Below, piece by piece: positions 21,625 to 31,143 of a stretch of 38,289 nucleotides of DNA. The notes beneath the pieces were generated by a model. That model did not search any database and was not told the DNA's origin. It saw only the letters and a list, made by a program, of their open reading frames with translations. Location: the IMG/VR virus record IMGVR_UViG_3300048835_000175, positions 1 to 38,289 of that record; one strand, 5' to 3'. Source of the stretch: a virus. The first letter of the stretch is position 1. The number at the start of each line of letters is the position of its first letter. A program made the position numbers and the translations under genes.

Positions 21625-22032
21625 ATGGCATTTTTGAATTTTTTGTTCGGCACCAAGCTCGGCCAGTTGCTCGTTGCGGCTTTGATCGTGCTGCTGTGCT
21701 GGTGGGCTTTTTCCAGTCACTACGACGGCGTCGGCTACCAGCGTTGCCGGGACGAGCACGCGAAGGCGGTGGCGGCGGCCAACGTCAAGCAGGCTGAAGA
21801 GAACGAAGCACGCAACGCGACCGCTTCGGAAGTTGCTAAGGACGCGACAGCGGCAACCGTCGATGTCATAAACCAAGCGGACGATGCGTCTGCAAAAACC
21901 AAAAAGGAAATCGAATATGTTTATCTCGACCGCCCGGCAACCGCTCCTGTTGTGTTCGATTCTTGTGCTCATCCTCTCGATGAGCGCGTGCAGCGGAAAC
22001 TCGACGAAGCCGTCAATCGAGCCAACGACTAG
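21625..22032 (+). CDS. Rz: Inner-membrane spanin subunit (Rz-like)
   Basis: A 135-residue protein with an N-terminal membrane segment (residues 14-30, QLLVAALIVLLCWWAFS) followed by a charged, Ala/Glu-rich helical periplasmic part, the pattern of i-spanins. AGGAG lies 5 bases before the ATG, 9 bases after the lysozyme stop. The o-spanin gene starts inside it in the +1 frame. Together they would link and fuse the inner and outer membranes in the last step of lysis. Confidence 0.85.
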   Translation: MAFLNFLFGTKLGQLLVAALIVLLCWWAFSSHYDGVGYQRCRDEHAKAVAAANVKQAEENEARNATASEVAKDATAATVDVINQADDASAKTKKEIEYVYLDRPATAPVVFDSCAHPLDERVQRKLDEAVNRAND

Positions 22033-22276
22033 CGAGGTGCGCTGCAAGCAGCCGCAGGACTTCAAGTTGCCGCTGCTGCCGCGCTCGAACCAGTGGGTGC
22101 AGTGCGTGCCGCCGCTGCCGGGCTCGCTGGACAAGAACGAAGCGTGCCGTGCCAGCGTGGAGATCGTGCAGTGGGCGGAGGCCGCAGCGCTCGTGGTCGA
22201 CAAGCTGCGCGGCGTGCGCGGCGAAGAGCATGCGTGCCTGGACGACGCGGAAGCGAAGGGCCTCATCCGGCAGTAG
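21917..22276 (+). CDS. Rz1: Outer-membrane spanin lipoprotein (Rz1-like)
   Basis: A 119-residue protein starting at ATG 21917 within Rz, in another frame, with AAAAAGGA 8 bases upstream. The signal peptide (LLLCSILVLILSMSAC) ends in lipobox SMSAC|S, so the mature protein is an outer-membrane lipoprotein. Pro is frequent just after (KPSIEP, LPLLPRS, VPPLPG), as in Rz1. It overlaps Rz by 116 bases and extends 244 bases beyond it. It is about twice the length of lambda Rz1 (60 aa), with a helical Cys-containing tail of unknown role. Confidence 0.85.
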   Translation: MFISTARQPLLLCSILVLILSMSACSGNSTKPSIEPTTSEVRCKQPQDFKLPLLPRSNQWVQCVPPLPGSLDKNEACRASVEIVQWAEAAALVVDKLRGVRGEEHACLDDAEAKGLIRQ

Positions 22277-22404
22277 TTGACGGCGCCGAGATACCGCGAT
22301 AGGGTTAGGGCCGCTGGTCGTATTCGCACTACGCCTGGCAACTCCTACCTCGGAACGGCGGAGGCGGAATCGAGAAACGTGGCGGGTCTCGATCTCGCAC
22401 TAGG

Positions 22405-22435
22405 AACCCCGGACTCACACTCCGGGGTTTCTTTT
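22405..22435 (+). terminator. Intrinsic terminator of the late/lysis block
   Basis: A 9-bp stem (22405-22413 AACCCCGGA with 22421-22429 TCCGGGGTT) and 7-base loop are followed by TCTTTTT. The T-run on the + strand shows it stops rightward transcription after Rz1. Confidence 0.88.
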
Positions 22436-22439
22436 TGCC

Positions 22440-22464
22440 GTCAAGACCAACTTGGCCTAGACCA
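22440..22464 (+). repeat. 25-bp repeat, copy 2 (paired with 7631-7655)
   Basis: This block matches 7631-7655 at 22 of 25 positions, including the 15-bp spacing of two AGACC-containing halves. It lies between the two convergent terminators, as copy 1 lies next to the tube terminator. Its role is unknown. Confidence 0.6.
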
Positions 22465-22481
22465 ACCTTGCCGTGACCCCG

Positions 22482-22520
22482 CAAAAGAATCCCCCCGGCG
22501 TTTCGGCCGGGGGGATTCTT
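22482..22520 (-). terminator. Intrinsic terminator of the leftward operon
   Basis: A perfect 15-bp stem (22485-22499 with 22506-22520) encloses a 6-base loop, GTTTCG. On the minus strand the stem is followed by a short T-run (ATTCTTTTGC), so it stops leftward transcription about 60 bases after the last leftward gene. Confidence 0.85.
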
Positions 22521-22577
22521 GGGTCTGTCGATGTTCACCGGACGCTTGGTCGGCGGTGTCAGGTTTGAGACTCGACG

Positions 22578-22871
22578 TTAATCGAACCACACGGGGCCGT
22601 CAAGCCCCGCAGCCGTCATCCTGGCCTGCCACCGCTTCCGGTCGGCGATACGGGCGCCTGCGGCGGCTACGGCGGCCAGGAAGCGGTCGGCGTTGAGGTC
22701 GTAGCACTCCAGCATGTGCACCTCGACGCCGGCCCACTCCTGGCCGATCAACTGCCATTCGATCTCCGGGTCGCGCGGGTCGATGTAGCTCCAGTCGTCG
22801 GGGTCCAGGAGTAGGCCGTCTTCCGCCCAGGTGCGCGCCTCGAAGATCGAGCGAGCCAGAATGTAGATCAC
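22578..22871 (-). CDS. Hypothetical protein, last gene of leftward operon
   Basis: A 97-residue protein starting at GTG 22871 inside the stop of the macro-like gene (GTGA). The frame is open upstream but only as a shadow of that gene. The sequence is acidic in the first half (EDGLLLDPDDWSYIDPRDPE), aromatic-rich, and has a helix with AAVAAAGARIADRKRWQARM. No family recognised. It is the end of the operon, just before its terminator. Confidence 0.65.
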   Translation of the reverse strand: MIYILARSIFEARTWAEDGLLLDPDDWSYIDPRDPEIEWQLIGQEWAGVEVHMLECYDLNADRFLAAVAAAGARIADRKRWQARMTAAGLDGPVWFD

Positions 22872-23245
22872 GGCGCCCCCGTGTAGTCGACGGGCACCAG
22901 GCGCCCCAGGTCGCCCAGGAAGTGCACGTTGGCAGGCACGCTCGGCGGGAACAGCGCCGCGATGCTGTCGGGCCGGTAGCCGCCGAGCCCGCATCCGATG
23001 TCGACCACGTTGAACTTCAGCTCGGGATGGCGCCGCGCGTACGCGACGAACAGATTGATGCTGCCCTTGATTGCGCGCAGGCTGCGGACGCGCATCTGGT
23101 AGTCCTTCGTCGGGATGGCGTAGGCGCGACCCGTACGACCTTCGCCAACACCCTGCGCCGCGTCGTGCTTCTCCTTCGCAGTTCGCGCGCTACCTTTACC
23201 GTGGCGGCCACCTTGATTGGAGCCGAACACGAATATTTCGTTCAC
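22868..23245 (-). CDS. Macro-domain-like phage protein (A1S_2505 type)
   Basis: A 125-residue protein starting at GTG, with AGGAGA about 7 bases upstream and a four-base overlap with the gene before. It opens MNEIFVFGSNQGGRHGKGSA, then GVGEGRTGRAYAIPTKD, and has DIGCGLGGYRPDSIA: these are hallmarks of a phage/bacterial family related to macro domains, which bind ADP-ribose or its derivatives. It could remove or sense ADP-ribose marks or NAD-derived signals made by host defences. The fold assignment is firm; the substrate is inference. Confidence 0.82.
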   Translation of the reverse strand: MNEIFVFGSNQGGRHGKGSARTAKEKHDAAQGVGEGRTGRAYAIPTKDYQMRVRSLRAIKGSINLFVAYARRHPELKFNVVDIGCGLGGYRPDSIAALFPPSVPANVHFLGDLGRLVPVDYTGAP

Positions 23246-23673
23246 GAGGCGTCTCCTGAAAGTAGTTCATCCCAAGTCGGGCCGCAGGCATTTCCGTACA
23301 ATACTGCTTGGAACAACGCGATGCGGTCATCCTTCTCTAGCAAGTTGAAGCGTTTCGCTATGCTGGTAGCAGCCAAGAAGCGACGGTGAAATTCTTTGTC
23401 CGTGGTCAGCACTAGGTTTAGTTCGCCGTTGCGGTAAGAGCGGAAGCCGACGCCTTCGTTGAGCGCGTTGGCGTAGTGTTCGCAGCCGTCAAACTCCCAG
23501 CCGAGAAGCTCTAGGTCGAACAGCAAGTCAGGCCAGGCTTCTTCACTGACGTAGCACAGCACGTCCTGGTCCGTGTCGGTCGGCGGCGGGCTGCACGTAA
23601 CGCGGGAGCCTACAAGCGTCACTGCTACGCAATAGGCTTCCAGGCAGTCCGGCAGTTCGACCTCGGCGTTCAC
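23242..23673 (-). CDS. Nucleotidyltransferase-like protein
   Basis: A 143-residue protein starting at GTG 23673 in a GTGA overlap. Residues 20-40 (LVGSRVTCSPPPTDTDQDVL) carry the Pol-beta-type nucleotidyltransferase pattern: Gly22-Ser23, then Asp33-X-Asp35 (and Asp37) after a short loop. ELNLVLTTD near residue 88 could supply the third strand acid. The C-terminal half (FHRRFLAATSIAKRFNLLEK) is helical. Such proteins add nucleotides to protein, RNA or small molecules. The motif is visible; the target is unknown. Confidence 0.65.
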   Translation of the reverse strand: MNAEVELPDCLEAYCVAVTLVGSRVTCSPPPTDTDQDVLCYVSEEAWPDLLFDLELLGWEFDGCEHYANALNEGVGFRSYRNGELNLVLTTDKEFHRRFLAATSIAKRFNLLEKDDRIALFQAVLYGNACGPTWDELLSGDAS

Positions 23674-24557
23674 TTGAACGTCTCCACAAACTTGACCATT
23701 TTTGCGCGGGTCTTCTTCAGCTCGGCGGCCCACTTGTCCCACGCTTTCGTGTCGATGCACTTCTCGATCTCCTTGAGCGCGACGGCGTTCAAGATGTCCG
23801 GCGGCAGCGCGTCCAGCTCCCAGCTCGACTCGCCGAACTTCCGGCGGTAGCTGACGAACCGCGAGTCGGTCGTCTTCGCAGGATTGGGCGGCGGGCTCAG
23901 TTCTTCGATCTGGTTGAAGTTCAGCGCCAAGCGCTTGAGCTTGAACCGCGCGTAGCCGCTGAAGAGGTCGAACCGCTCTTCCAGGTCGCGCGTCATGTCG
24001 ATGCCGCTCGGGTCGTGGTCGCCGAAGTGCAGCAGCGTGATCTCCTTGACGCTCTTCGAGTAGCTGTTGCCGTTGAGCGTGGTCTCGGCGAACTCGCGCA
24101 CGACGGACGCGCTCGGGTAGCCGCGTGCGGCCAGGAGCGGGATGTCGTACGTGCGGCACAACCGCTGGAACACACCGGAGAGCGCTTCTTTCTCGACGAT
24201 CAAGAACACGCGCTCTTCCTGCGTCGCCCGCGGGTCGGTGTGGTACTGCTCAGCCGCGCCGCGCAGGATGTCCTTGGGTTCGGTCCAGCGGTTGCGGCCG
24301 ACGAACGAACGCGTGCGGTCCTCGATGGCGTCCCAATCAATCAGGCCCGCGATGCGCGCGTCGTTGACGATGCCGGCGACGTTCTTGTAGGACTTCTCGG
24401 TGTTCTCGATGATCGCGCGAGCGACTAGCTGATAGAAAAGCTGGCGAACCGTCAACACATAGCCCTGCGCTATGTACTCTTCGATTATCGAGTTCATCTG
24501 TTCGATCAACTTGAGCGTAGACTTGCGGAAACTGATTTCGCGATAGCGCTGCTTCAT
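23670..24557 (-). CDS. Spo11/topoisomerase VI-A-like TOPRIM protein
   Basis: A 295-residue protein. ATG 24557 is preferred: it sits in an ATGA overlap and follows AGGAAAA; an ATG 19 codons upstream lies inside the neighbouring gene. The TOPRIM part has acidic residues Glu122/Glu124 (LIVEKEALSG) and Asp180-X-Asp182 (HFGDHDPSGIDM). Upstream, VRQLFYQLVARAI (35-47) resembles the catalytic-Tyr helix of Spo11/Top6A, with Tyr42 80 residues before the TOPRIM Glu. That order and spacing are like Top6A. No B-subunit ATPase gene is visible. It may cut or bind DNA ends. Confidence 0.72.
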   Translation of the reverse strand: MKQRYREISFRKSTLKLIEQMNSIIEEYIAQGYVLTVRQLFYQLVARAIIENTEKSYKNVAGIVNDARIAGLIDWDAIEDRTRSFVGRNRWTEPKDILRGAAEQYHTDPRATQEERVFLIVEKEALSGVFQRLCRTYDIPLLAARGYPSASVVREFAETTLNGNSYSKSVKEITLLHFGDHDPSGIDMTRDLEERFDLFSGYARFKLKRLALNFNQIEELSPPPNPAKTTDSRFVSYRRKFGESSWELDALPPDILNAVALKEIEKCIDTKAWDKWAAELKKTRAKMVKFVETFK

Positions 24558-25036
24558 GGCTTTTTCCTGTCGGCGGACCTGTTGCTGGATTTGAGATTGC
24601 GCAGCTTTTCCCAATACTCGCTGCGCCGTTGTTCTAGCTCTTCGCTAACCGTGTCGCCCCCTCCGTTGCCGCCTCGTTTAGCTAGAGGCAAACGCAGGAA
24701 GTCCAGCGCGGTCAACGCCTCTTCTCGTTTCGTTACAAACCACGGGAGCAGTGCTTCTAGCACGGTCTCTGCGTCGCCTGCATTGCAGAACCAAACGTAC
24801 GCCGAAGAGTAGTGCGCGTGCTGCTTCTGCTGCGAGTGCAGCGTCCCGACGCCAGTCAGCTCGCGGCACCGGAGCACTGTCGGCAAATGGCACATGCTCA
24901 CTTTCAATATCAGGCGGTAGTTGTAGCTGATCGACGCGTTGTGCGGCTGCGGGTTTCTCCGGGTGAGGCTTATGCAGCCTTCGCCGTCAATCAGCCCTGC
25001 GAGCCACGCCAGTTGTTCGCGTCGGTCAGTTCGCAT
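24554..25036 (-). CDS. LAGLIDADG-family homing endonuclease-like protein
   Basis: A 160-residue protein with a single motif, WLAGLIDGEGCISL (residues 11-24), where Asp17/Glu19 would bind metal at the dimer interface. One motif means it would act as a homodimer. KVSMCHLPTVLRCRELTGVG and a loop with QQKQHAHYSSAYVWF fit the DNA-binding saddle. It overlaps the small acidic gene by 11 bases and the TOPRIM gene by 3, so it is embedded in the operon, not in an intron or intein. It might favour its own spread among related phages. Confidence 0.8.
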   Translation of the reverse strand: MRTDRREQLAWLAGLIDGEGCISLTRRNPQPHNASISYNYRLILKVSMCHLPTVLRCRELTGVGTLHSQQKQHAHYSSAYVWFCNAGDAETVLEALLPWFVTKREEALTALDFLRLPLAKRGGNGGGDTVSEELEQRRSEYWEKLRNLKSSNRSADRKKP

Positions 25037-25223
25037 TTGAGTCTTCGCCCCCGTCGTTTTCCCAATAGGACATTTCGTCGTCGGCAGCTTCTTCGGGGCT
25101 GCTGTCGTAGTCATGGTCGTCCGCGCCTGCCTCGAAACATGCGCTGGCGCCTTCCGCGTCGACGCCGCAAGCAACCATGCGTGCGACGTAGCGGGCTTTC
25201 CACTGGTCTCTATCTTGGCTCAT
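25026..25223 (-). CDS. Small acidic protein
   Basis: A 65-residue protein starting at ATG in an ATGA overlap with the methyltransferase gene. The N-terminus is a helix (DQWKARYVARMVACGVDAEGA); residues 32-65 are very acidic (DDHDYDSSPEEAADDEMSYW). DNA-mimic anti-defence proteins can look like this, but nothing else supports that. Family not recognised. Confidence 0.65.
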   Translation of the reverse strand: MSQDRDQWKARYVARMVACGVDAEGASACFEAGADDHDYDSSPEEAADDEMSYWENDGGEDSNAN

Positions 25224-28956: not shown

Positions 28957-29613
28957 TTAATCGCAGCCAACCGTGGCGTTGGGCTTGGTCGGATGCGGGG
29001 CGAGGTATTCCTCGAAGTCGCGGAAGCCCTCGGGGCAGCGGAAACCCCAGCGCGAGCGACGCGGTCCGGTGAAGAAGAGCGTCATGCACGGCTGGTCGTT
29101 GTTCGGCCCATCGAGCTTGAGGTAGTGCGGATGCGGCATCGGCAGCTTGCGCCAGTCGCCTTCCGTGAAGCGCTGCTCGTAGCGCAGTCTGGTGCCGCCC
29201 AAGACCTCGTCGCGCGTCTGCGAGATCAGCTCGCGACCATCGGTCGGGTGCATCTTCCGGTACAGCGTGTAGTTGTCCTCGGTCTCGCTGTTGTGCTCCT
29301 GCTCGGTGACTTCGTAGTAGCGGCCGATCAGCATGAGCGACCAGGAGTTCCAGGCGTGCGTGTGCAGCGCGCGGTCGTCGTCGCCGTGCACGAAGATGTG
29401 CAGGTAGGCGTTGAACCAGCGGTTGCGCGGGATGAGATGCCAGCGCTGGAGGTACGGGCGCGGCGGGCCGCCGTCGATGCCGTCCAGGTCGATCAGCCGC
29501 GACGGCGGCATGATCTTGGCCCAGGCGCTGAAGAACGCGACGAACAGCTTCCAGAGCATGAGCTTGTTGAGGGTGTCGTAGAAGCGGCGGGACGTGGCGG
29601 GGATGGTCTGCAT
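28957..29613 (-). CDS. Cupin-like protein
   Basis: A 218-residue protein with AAGGA 7 bases before its ATG. The region YLHIFVHGDDDRALHTHAWN, followed by SLMLIGRYYEV, resembles a cupin metal site (H-T-H on one strand, then the G-x-Y-x-E turn). PHPHYLKL near residue 160 could give the third metal ligand. Such proteins in phages are mostly uncharacterised; dioxygenase, isomerase or binding roles are all possible. The N-terminal 35 residues include an amphipathic aromatic helix (LMLWKLFVAFFSAWAK) that may touch membrane. Confidence 0.6.
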   Translation of the reverse strand: MQTIPATSRRFYDTLNKLMLWKLFVAFFSAWAKIMPPSRLIDLDGIDGGPPRPYLQRWHLIPRNRWFNAYLHIFVHGDDDRALHTHAWNSWSLMLIGRYYEVTEQEHNSETEDNYTLYRKMHPTDGRELISQTRDEVLGGTRLRYEQRFTEGDWRKLPMPHPHYLKLDGPNNDQPCMTLFFTGPRRSRWGFRCPEGFRDFEEYLAPHPTKPNATVGCD

Positions 29614-30615: not shown

Positions 30616-31143
30616 TTAGACACCGAGGCCGATCAGACGAAGCTCCAGCAGCGTAGCGTCGTCATTGCTGTTGAGGTTGTAGACGGTAATCATGTATTCC
30701 TCGGCGATGCGCAGCGCTTGATCGGTGCCGCCGCTGTGGAACGGGTCGGTCCAGCAGACGATGAAGTCAACCGGCGACTGGCAGTCTTGTCCGAGAACCT
30801 GGTGCGAGTTGCGAGCGTGCAGCAGACGATGGTCGTTGACGAGCTTTTTCCAACGCGGGTGCGTCGCGGCTGCGATCTCCCAGGCGCGCGCACTCGGCGG
30901 CCAGCGCGAAGACTGGTGCCCGCCGTAGCCTTCGCACGGCAGGTAGATTTCCTTCTTGCACTTACCGCGCCCCGAGACCTGGGCTTCCATGTCGTGCCCG
31001 CTCTCGAACGCGAAGTCGGCGCCGCCCGCGCCGCCGCTGCGCAGAAGGTAGTTGGCGCGATAGAGCCGCCGCGCGTACTTCACGATGCGGAGGCACACGC
31101 TGTTCGGCGTGTTGCGCGAACCGATGCCGGCGTAGGCTTTCAT
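30616..31143 (-). CDS. SLOG-family (DprA-like) nucleotide-binding protein
   Basis: A 175-residue protein whose ATG overlaps the preceding TAA by one base. It starts KAYAGIGSRNTP and has YLLRSGGAGGADFAFESGHD, the two loops of the DprA/LOG-like Rossmann fold, and later VDFIVCWTDPFHSGGTDQAL, the third nucleotide-side loop. SLOG proteins bind or cleave nucleotides and nucleotide-derived signals; DprA itself binds single-stranded DNA. This short form has only the Rossmann domain. A part in nucleotide signalling or defence evasion is possible but inferred. Confidence 0.75.
   Translation of the reverse strand: MKAYAGIGSRNTPNSVCLRIVKYARRLYRANYLLRSGGAGGADFAFESGHDMEAQVSGRGKCKKEIYLPCEGYGGHQSSRWPPSARAWEIAAATHPRWKKLVNDHRLLHARNSHQVLGQDCQSPVDFIVCWTDPFHSGGTDQALRIAEEYMITVYNLNSNDDATLLELRLIGLGV

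Follow-up and report, generated by a model that had tools for sequence, protein, structure and literature searches.

An orphan Top6A-like protein of the Mini-A family encoded by a Casjensviridae-like phage

The window analyzed here is an entire virus record of 38,289 bases from a Casjensviridae-like phage and is probably incomplete, since its Casjensviridae relatives AhaSv and Bhz60 have complete genomes of 55-57 kb. Its minus strand carries an open reading frame (ORF) for a protein resembling the A subunit of type IIB topoisomerases (Table 1). Judged by sequence comparison, this ORF is a real gene and not a chance occurrence because it matched PHROG 6247, 74 phage records by tblastn, and more than 570 related stretches in viral contigs. 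The assigned start codon agreed with that of the relatives, most of which open with M-K-x-x-Y. The start overlaps the upstream ORF (ATGA) and the stop overlaps the downstream ORF (GTGA), and the gene therefore lies inside a tightly packed minus-strand cluster. The cluster is convergent to the plus-strand structural and lysis genes, a layout shared with Xanthomonas phage AhaSv that makes the label "early operon" plausible. A scan of positions 22000-23300 revealed no promoter or terminator.

Table 1. Features of the Mini-A locus, with positions given in the window.
Feature	Coordinates	Strand	Remarks
Mini-A CDS	23670..24557	minus	295 aa, ATG at 24557, stop at 23670; type IIB topoisomerase A-subunit-like
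Upstream neighbor, LAGLIDADG homing-endonuclease-like ORF	24554..25174	minus	Pfam LAGLIDADG_1 1.3e-5 (above cut-off); PHROG 5046 1.2e-20
Downstream neighbor, 143 aa	23242..23673	minus	PHROG 15166 7.6e-28
Second small ORF downstream	22868-23245	minus	PHROG 2072
N-terminal winged-helix (5Y-CAP-like) domain, residues 11-82	24312..24527	minus	Predicted alone, best match Top6A 1d3y
Tyr42 codon, predicted nucleophile	24432..24434	minus	VRQLFYQL here; family consensus TLRQLYYQL
Glu122 codon, TOPRIM metal ligand	24192..24194	minus	Aligned to glutamate of Top6A VET
Asp180-His181-Asp182 codons, TOPRIM DxD	24012..24020	minus	Aligned to Top6A DxDP
Glu247 codon, candidate fourth metal ligand	23817..23819	minus	SWELDAL motif; assignment inferred

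The AhaSv homolog WRQ05411.1 (DNA topoisomerase; Casjensviridae, Salvovirus) lies at the corresponding end of the early-side cluster, where it likewise converges on the lysis genes, but is the last gene there, whereas further small ORFs follow downstream in the window. The two small downstream ORFs overlap each other, belong to the same operon as the topoisomerase-like gene, and have no counterpart at that place in AhaSv. The upstream LAGLIDADG ORF is free-standing; in its slot AhaSv has a kinase-like gene, and Bhz60 a gene for a DNA methyltransferase. The same gene cluster also encodes a DprA-like DNA recombination-mediator protein (30616-31143, minus strand; PHROG 768, E 2e-47), and a cysteine-dioxygenase-like gene (28957-29613, minus strand; PHROG 4786) is common to AhaSv and Bhz60.

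PHROG 6247 ("DNA topoisomerase") was matched by residues 1-295 of the window protein (E 1e-119), and tblastn identified homologs in AhaSv (64% identity) and Pseudomonas phage NP1 (50% identity, 100% of the length). Truncated Top6A homologs of archaeoviruses and bacteriophages have been termed Mini-A, with the NP1 protein serving as the example in Figure 4 of a 2021 review (PMC7614492). Based on its full-length identity to this named member, the window protein almost certainly belongs to Mini-A, the orphan viral type IIB topoisomerase A-like proteins, and the preliminary description had placed it correctly among these orphan relatives. The protein is a truncated Top6A-like form encoded in a virus record that combines a tyrosine-bearing winged helix with a TOPRIM domain and, at 295 aa, has neither an ATPase domain nor a B subunit in the phage records. 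In the original Mini-A description by Takahashi et al. in 2020, a short C-terminal motif reportedly separates Mini-A from topoisomerases VI and VIII, and SWELDAL near residues 245-251 is a candidate for this motif.

A Pfam search with the window protein gave no match, and no related PDB entry was returned when the protein sequence or profiles were used as queries. Weak matches were obtained among 38 relatives to TP6A_N (seven relatives, best E 0.027), the JetD models (12), and DUF2399 (14). None of the 161 homologs contained a recognizable fused domain, and long family ORFs were rejected as fusions, their extra length being 5' read-through without a recognizable domain. Homologs of approximately 39-43% identity were carried by archaeal contigs of Nitrosopumilus (L161 and L162) and Nanoarchaeota (L132 and L163), and two of the archaeal genomes with a Mini-A homolog also encode a normal Top6A. 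The Roseobacter phage RDJL Phi 1 gene (HM151342.1, 14436-15265) is divided between the annotated ORFs gp26 and gp27 while its RDJL Phi 2 equivalent is matched undivided, marking the Phi 1 split as a frameshift or sequencing error. A copy with an internal stop in a bacterial genome contig of Marinobacterium jannaschii (L159, 8001-8813) is probably a decaying prophage copy.

Conservation was assessed in an alignment of 161 homologs drawn from contigs of viruses and of prokaryotic genomes, with counts for Asp180, Asp182, and Glu247 taken out of 160 as L159 ends early at its stop. The preliminary description had regarded the TOPRIM motifs as clear and had placed the tyrosine of VRQLFYQL at the position of the DNA-cutting tyrosine of Spo11 and Top6A. 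Both claims held, with Tyr42 and Glu122 invariant (161/161 each), Asp180 and Asp182 kept in all 160 homologs reaching that far, and Tyr42 aligned to the second tyrosine of TLRELYY in archaeal Top6A. The window protein consequently contains the catalytic set of Top6A (Tyr, Glu, Asp, and Asp), and Glu247 was kept in 159/160 homologs. The metal tetrad of Methanosarcina mazei Top6A comprises E202, D254, D256, and E342, with Tyr106 (PMC13040014). The family motif is T-x-R-Q-x-Y-Y, of which the second tyrosine is the invariant residue; position 41 is Tyr in 157 homologs and Phe in four, and is Phe in the window protein. Tyr57 was likewise invariant (161/161) and may also be a functional residue, so that the choice of Tyr42 as the nucleophile rests on the alignment.

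A profile-profile alignment of Mini-A with 17 archaeal Top6A proteins brought TVRQLFY into register with STLRELYY, VEK with VET, and DHDP with DCDP (hhalign E 0.027). Its score of 23.4 exceeded that of 98 out of 100 column-shuffled Top6A profiles (2/100 attained it) and the reversed profile gave 16.8, which suggests kinship with Top6A separately from the structural result, weakly if taken on its own.

An AlphaFold2 model of the full protein, built on a 38-sequence alignment, had a pLDDT of 91 and a pTM of 0.83. With Foldseek alone, neither the full model nor the N-terminal domain had a significant match in the PDB, and a search of a viral structure library gave no informative match. Upon realignment with VIA-align, Top6A 1d3y ranked first for the full model (Z 11.3, rmsd 3.8, 146 residues). 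MksG (Z 11.1) and JetD (Z 11.0) came next, ahead of additional Top6 chains and Spo11 (Z 9.1). These top rows cover approximately residues 79-268, corresponding to the TOPRIM part, and because single TOPRIM proteins reach Z 10.0, the claim is restricted to the predicted structure having a TOPRIM domain with its nearest kin among Top6A, JetD, and Spo11.

The first 108 residues, modeled alone (pLDDT 87.5), best matched the N-terminal domain of Methanocaldococcus jannaschii Top6A (1d3y, Z 7.9, rmsd 2.4, 69 residues), with unrelated winged helices ranking below it at Z 6.9 or less. The model thus bears out the winged-helix CAP fold expected for this part of the protein; a Z of 7.9 is middling, and the weight of the comparison lies in the correct domain of the correct protein ranking top. 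Model residues 11-82 superimposed on residues 72-143 of the 1d3y chain with a constant offset at both ends (11 on 72 and 82 on 143). By this offset, model residue 42 coincides with residue 103 of the M. jannaschii protein, the catalytic tyrosine of that enzyme.

Mini-A shares with archaeal Top6A the winged helix with its tyrosine and the TOPRIM domain, the motif TVRQLFY standing against TLRELYY with the glutamate and DxD in register, but differs in its size (approximately 295 versus 360 aa), its very low sequence similarity, and its lack of a Top6B partner. Spo11 has the same fold and a paired-Tyr motif and can cut without an ATPase, but it acts in eukaryotic meiosis alongside partners of its own; the residues required for its double-strand breaks, in which the protein is covalently linked to the 5' ends, are present in Mini-A. 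JetD and MksG of the Wadjet/MksBEFG systems resemble Mini-A in the TOPRIM fold (Z approximately 11) and weakly in sequence. JetD and MksG work with an SMC complex and are encoded with the SMC-type partners JetABC/MksBEF. In the 5Y-CAP-like domain of MksG there is no candidate tyrosine (PMC10123090), whereas Mini-A has Y42, and despite the similar TOPRIM this missing tyrosine sets Mini-A apart from the Wadjet nucleases.

A set of 34 Mini-A phage records was searched with two GHKL models (PF13589, PF02518) and a model of the Top6B transducer (PF09239). None was detected in any record (0/34), the complete AhaSv and NP1 genomes included, such that the absence of an ATPase B subunit remarked on in the window extends to the complete relatives. 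In control genomes, PF13589 and PF02518 were detected in 14/14 and PF09239 in only the four archaea; supply of a canonical B subunit by the host is unlikely, as the bacterial controls also had no Top6B transducer. Consequently, the A2B2 composition of topoisomerase VI, with a Top6B GHKL and transducer, was not found. Topoisomerase VIII is usually a homodimer understood as A and B parts in a single chain, and the 295-aa ORF has no ATPase part of this kind.

Neighbor clustering and PHROG scans of 83 downstream and 85 upstream neighbors from dereplicated loci led to rejection of a constant partner gene, the commonest recognizable neighbor being a downstream Sak4-like single-strand annealing protein (5/83), and no recurrent partner was present among the Mini-A neighbor clusters. 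An iterated search of all loci detected Sak4 in 16, with 14 of these having it as the immediate next gene, as did 7/9 groups after dereplication at 75% Mini-A identity. The called Sak4 ORF overlaps Mini-A by approximately 150 bases in two loci (L045 and L046), taken as an over-extended start. Within the 34 whole records, a strong Sak4 match occurred in four, all adjoining Mini-A, and Sak4 was not detected in the window record or in most of the relatives. NP1 gp49 (YP_009285860.1) is like the window protein in size, catalytic residues, and lack of a B subunit but is directly followed by Sak4 and has a ligase upstream, where the window has an ORF of unknown function and the LAGLIDADG ORF. The Sak4-adjacent loci came mostly from one Mini-A clade, NP1 included, and the adjacency may be a single ancestral linkage retained as the proteins diverged. 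A PDDEXK_1 exonuclease co-occurred in 10/34 Mini-A records, a raw count without a baseline that supports no reading. Sak4 is likened to archaeal RadB, a Rad51 paralog (PMC5928155). It is a doubtful proposition that Mini-A and Sak4 together constitute a minimal two-protein phage system for programmed recombination that starts from breaks. In such a system, Mini-A would break DNA covalently as Spo11 does, with no ATPase involved, and the ends would be used by the RadB/Rad51-like product of the adjoining gene.

Mini-A is probably an active tyrosine transesterase that operates without an ATPase. As it keeps the residues equivalent to those of Top6 and has no ATPase, ATP-independent covalent cleavage by a homodimer would be expected, and ATP-driven strand passage of the topoisomerase VI kind is unlikely as no GHKL ATPase is available. 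In such a homodimer, each winged helix would offer Tyr42 to a metal site in the TOPRIM of the partner (Glu122, Asp180, Asp182, and probably Glu247). The two tyrosines would attack a bent or supercoiled duplex, giving a double-strand break or nick with Mini-A attached to the 5' ends; the outcome would be either a controlled break or a resealable nick. For comparison, mouse SPO11 needs no partners to make double-strand breaks, remains on the 5' ends, and requires dimerization for its hybrid active sites (PMC11922746), and Top6 favors bent, supercoiled DNA (PMC13040014). A function in replicating or recombining the DNA of the phage itself is favored by the neighbors being mainly DNA-metabolism genes together with the Sak4 lead, and we judge the chances of such a role to be about even. 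The reading as a whole, i.e., a stand-alone relative of Top6A and Spo11 that acts as an ATP-independent homodimer, cleaves via Tyr42, and is used on the phage's own DNA, is likely. A literature search found no Mini-A activity or experiment, in keeping with the poorly understood role noted in the preliminary description.

Mini-A might instead be an ATP-independent topoisomerase that cuts, passes or swivels, and reseals DNA, so that the replication intermediates of the phage are relaxed or decatenated and no breaks are left behind. Retention of the full set of topoisomerase residues would suit this activity, as would the reports that topoisomerase VIII of Microscilla marina relaxes DNA without ATP (PMC7614492) and that nick resealing is within the ability of mouse SPO11 (PMC11922746). 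The family is also labeled "DNA topoisomerase" in databases, but the 34 phage records encode no GHKL ATPase or transducer. To our knowledge, there is no mechanism for directed strand passage in their absence, and we consider a topoisomerase role rather unlikely. A nuclease directed against other DNA (the host chromosome, plasmids, or competing phages) in the manner of Wadjet JetD/MksG is improbable: the TOPRIM resembles MksG and JetD in addition to Top6A, and the relatives matching JetD models and DUF2399 point the same way, but the tyrosine that MksG lacks in its 5Y-CAP-like domain (PMC10123090) is kept by all 161 Mini-A homologs and the neighbor analysis gave no constant partner gene. That Mini-A is catalytically dead or a regulatory DNA-binding protein is highly improbable, as Tyr, Glu, Asp, and Asp are wholly invariant across sequences down to approximately 40% identity, even though many topoisomerase VIII proteins are in states of inactivation (PMC7614492) and the literature holds no demonstrated Mini-A activity.

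The window gene adds a member to the already named Mini-A family, for which the present analysis contributes a full conservation test, a domain-level fold test, a search for the ATPase in relatives, and the Sak4 adjacency. Within the type IIB topoisomerase/Spo11 family, Mini-A is a widely distributed branch that occurs in phages, prophages, and archaeal contigs, and many viruses keep the DNA-cutting half of topoisomerase VI intact without its ATPase. This bears on how Spo11 could have turned into a break-maker and on the replication and recombination of phages that carry Mini-A.
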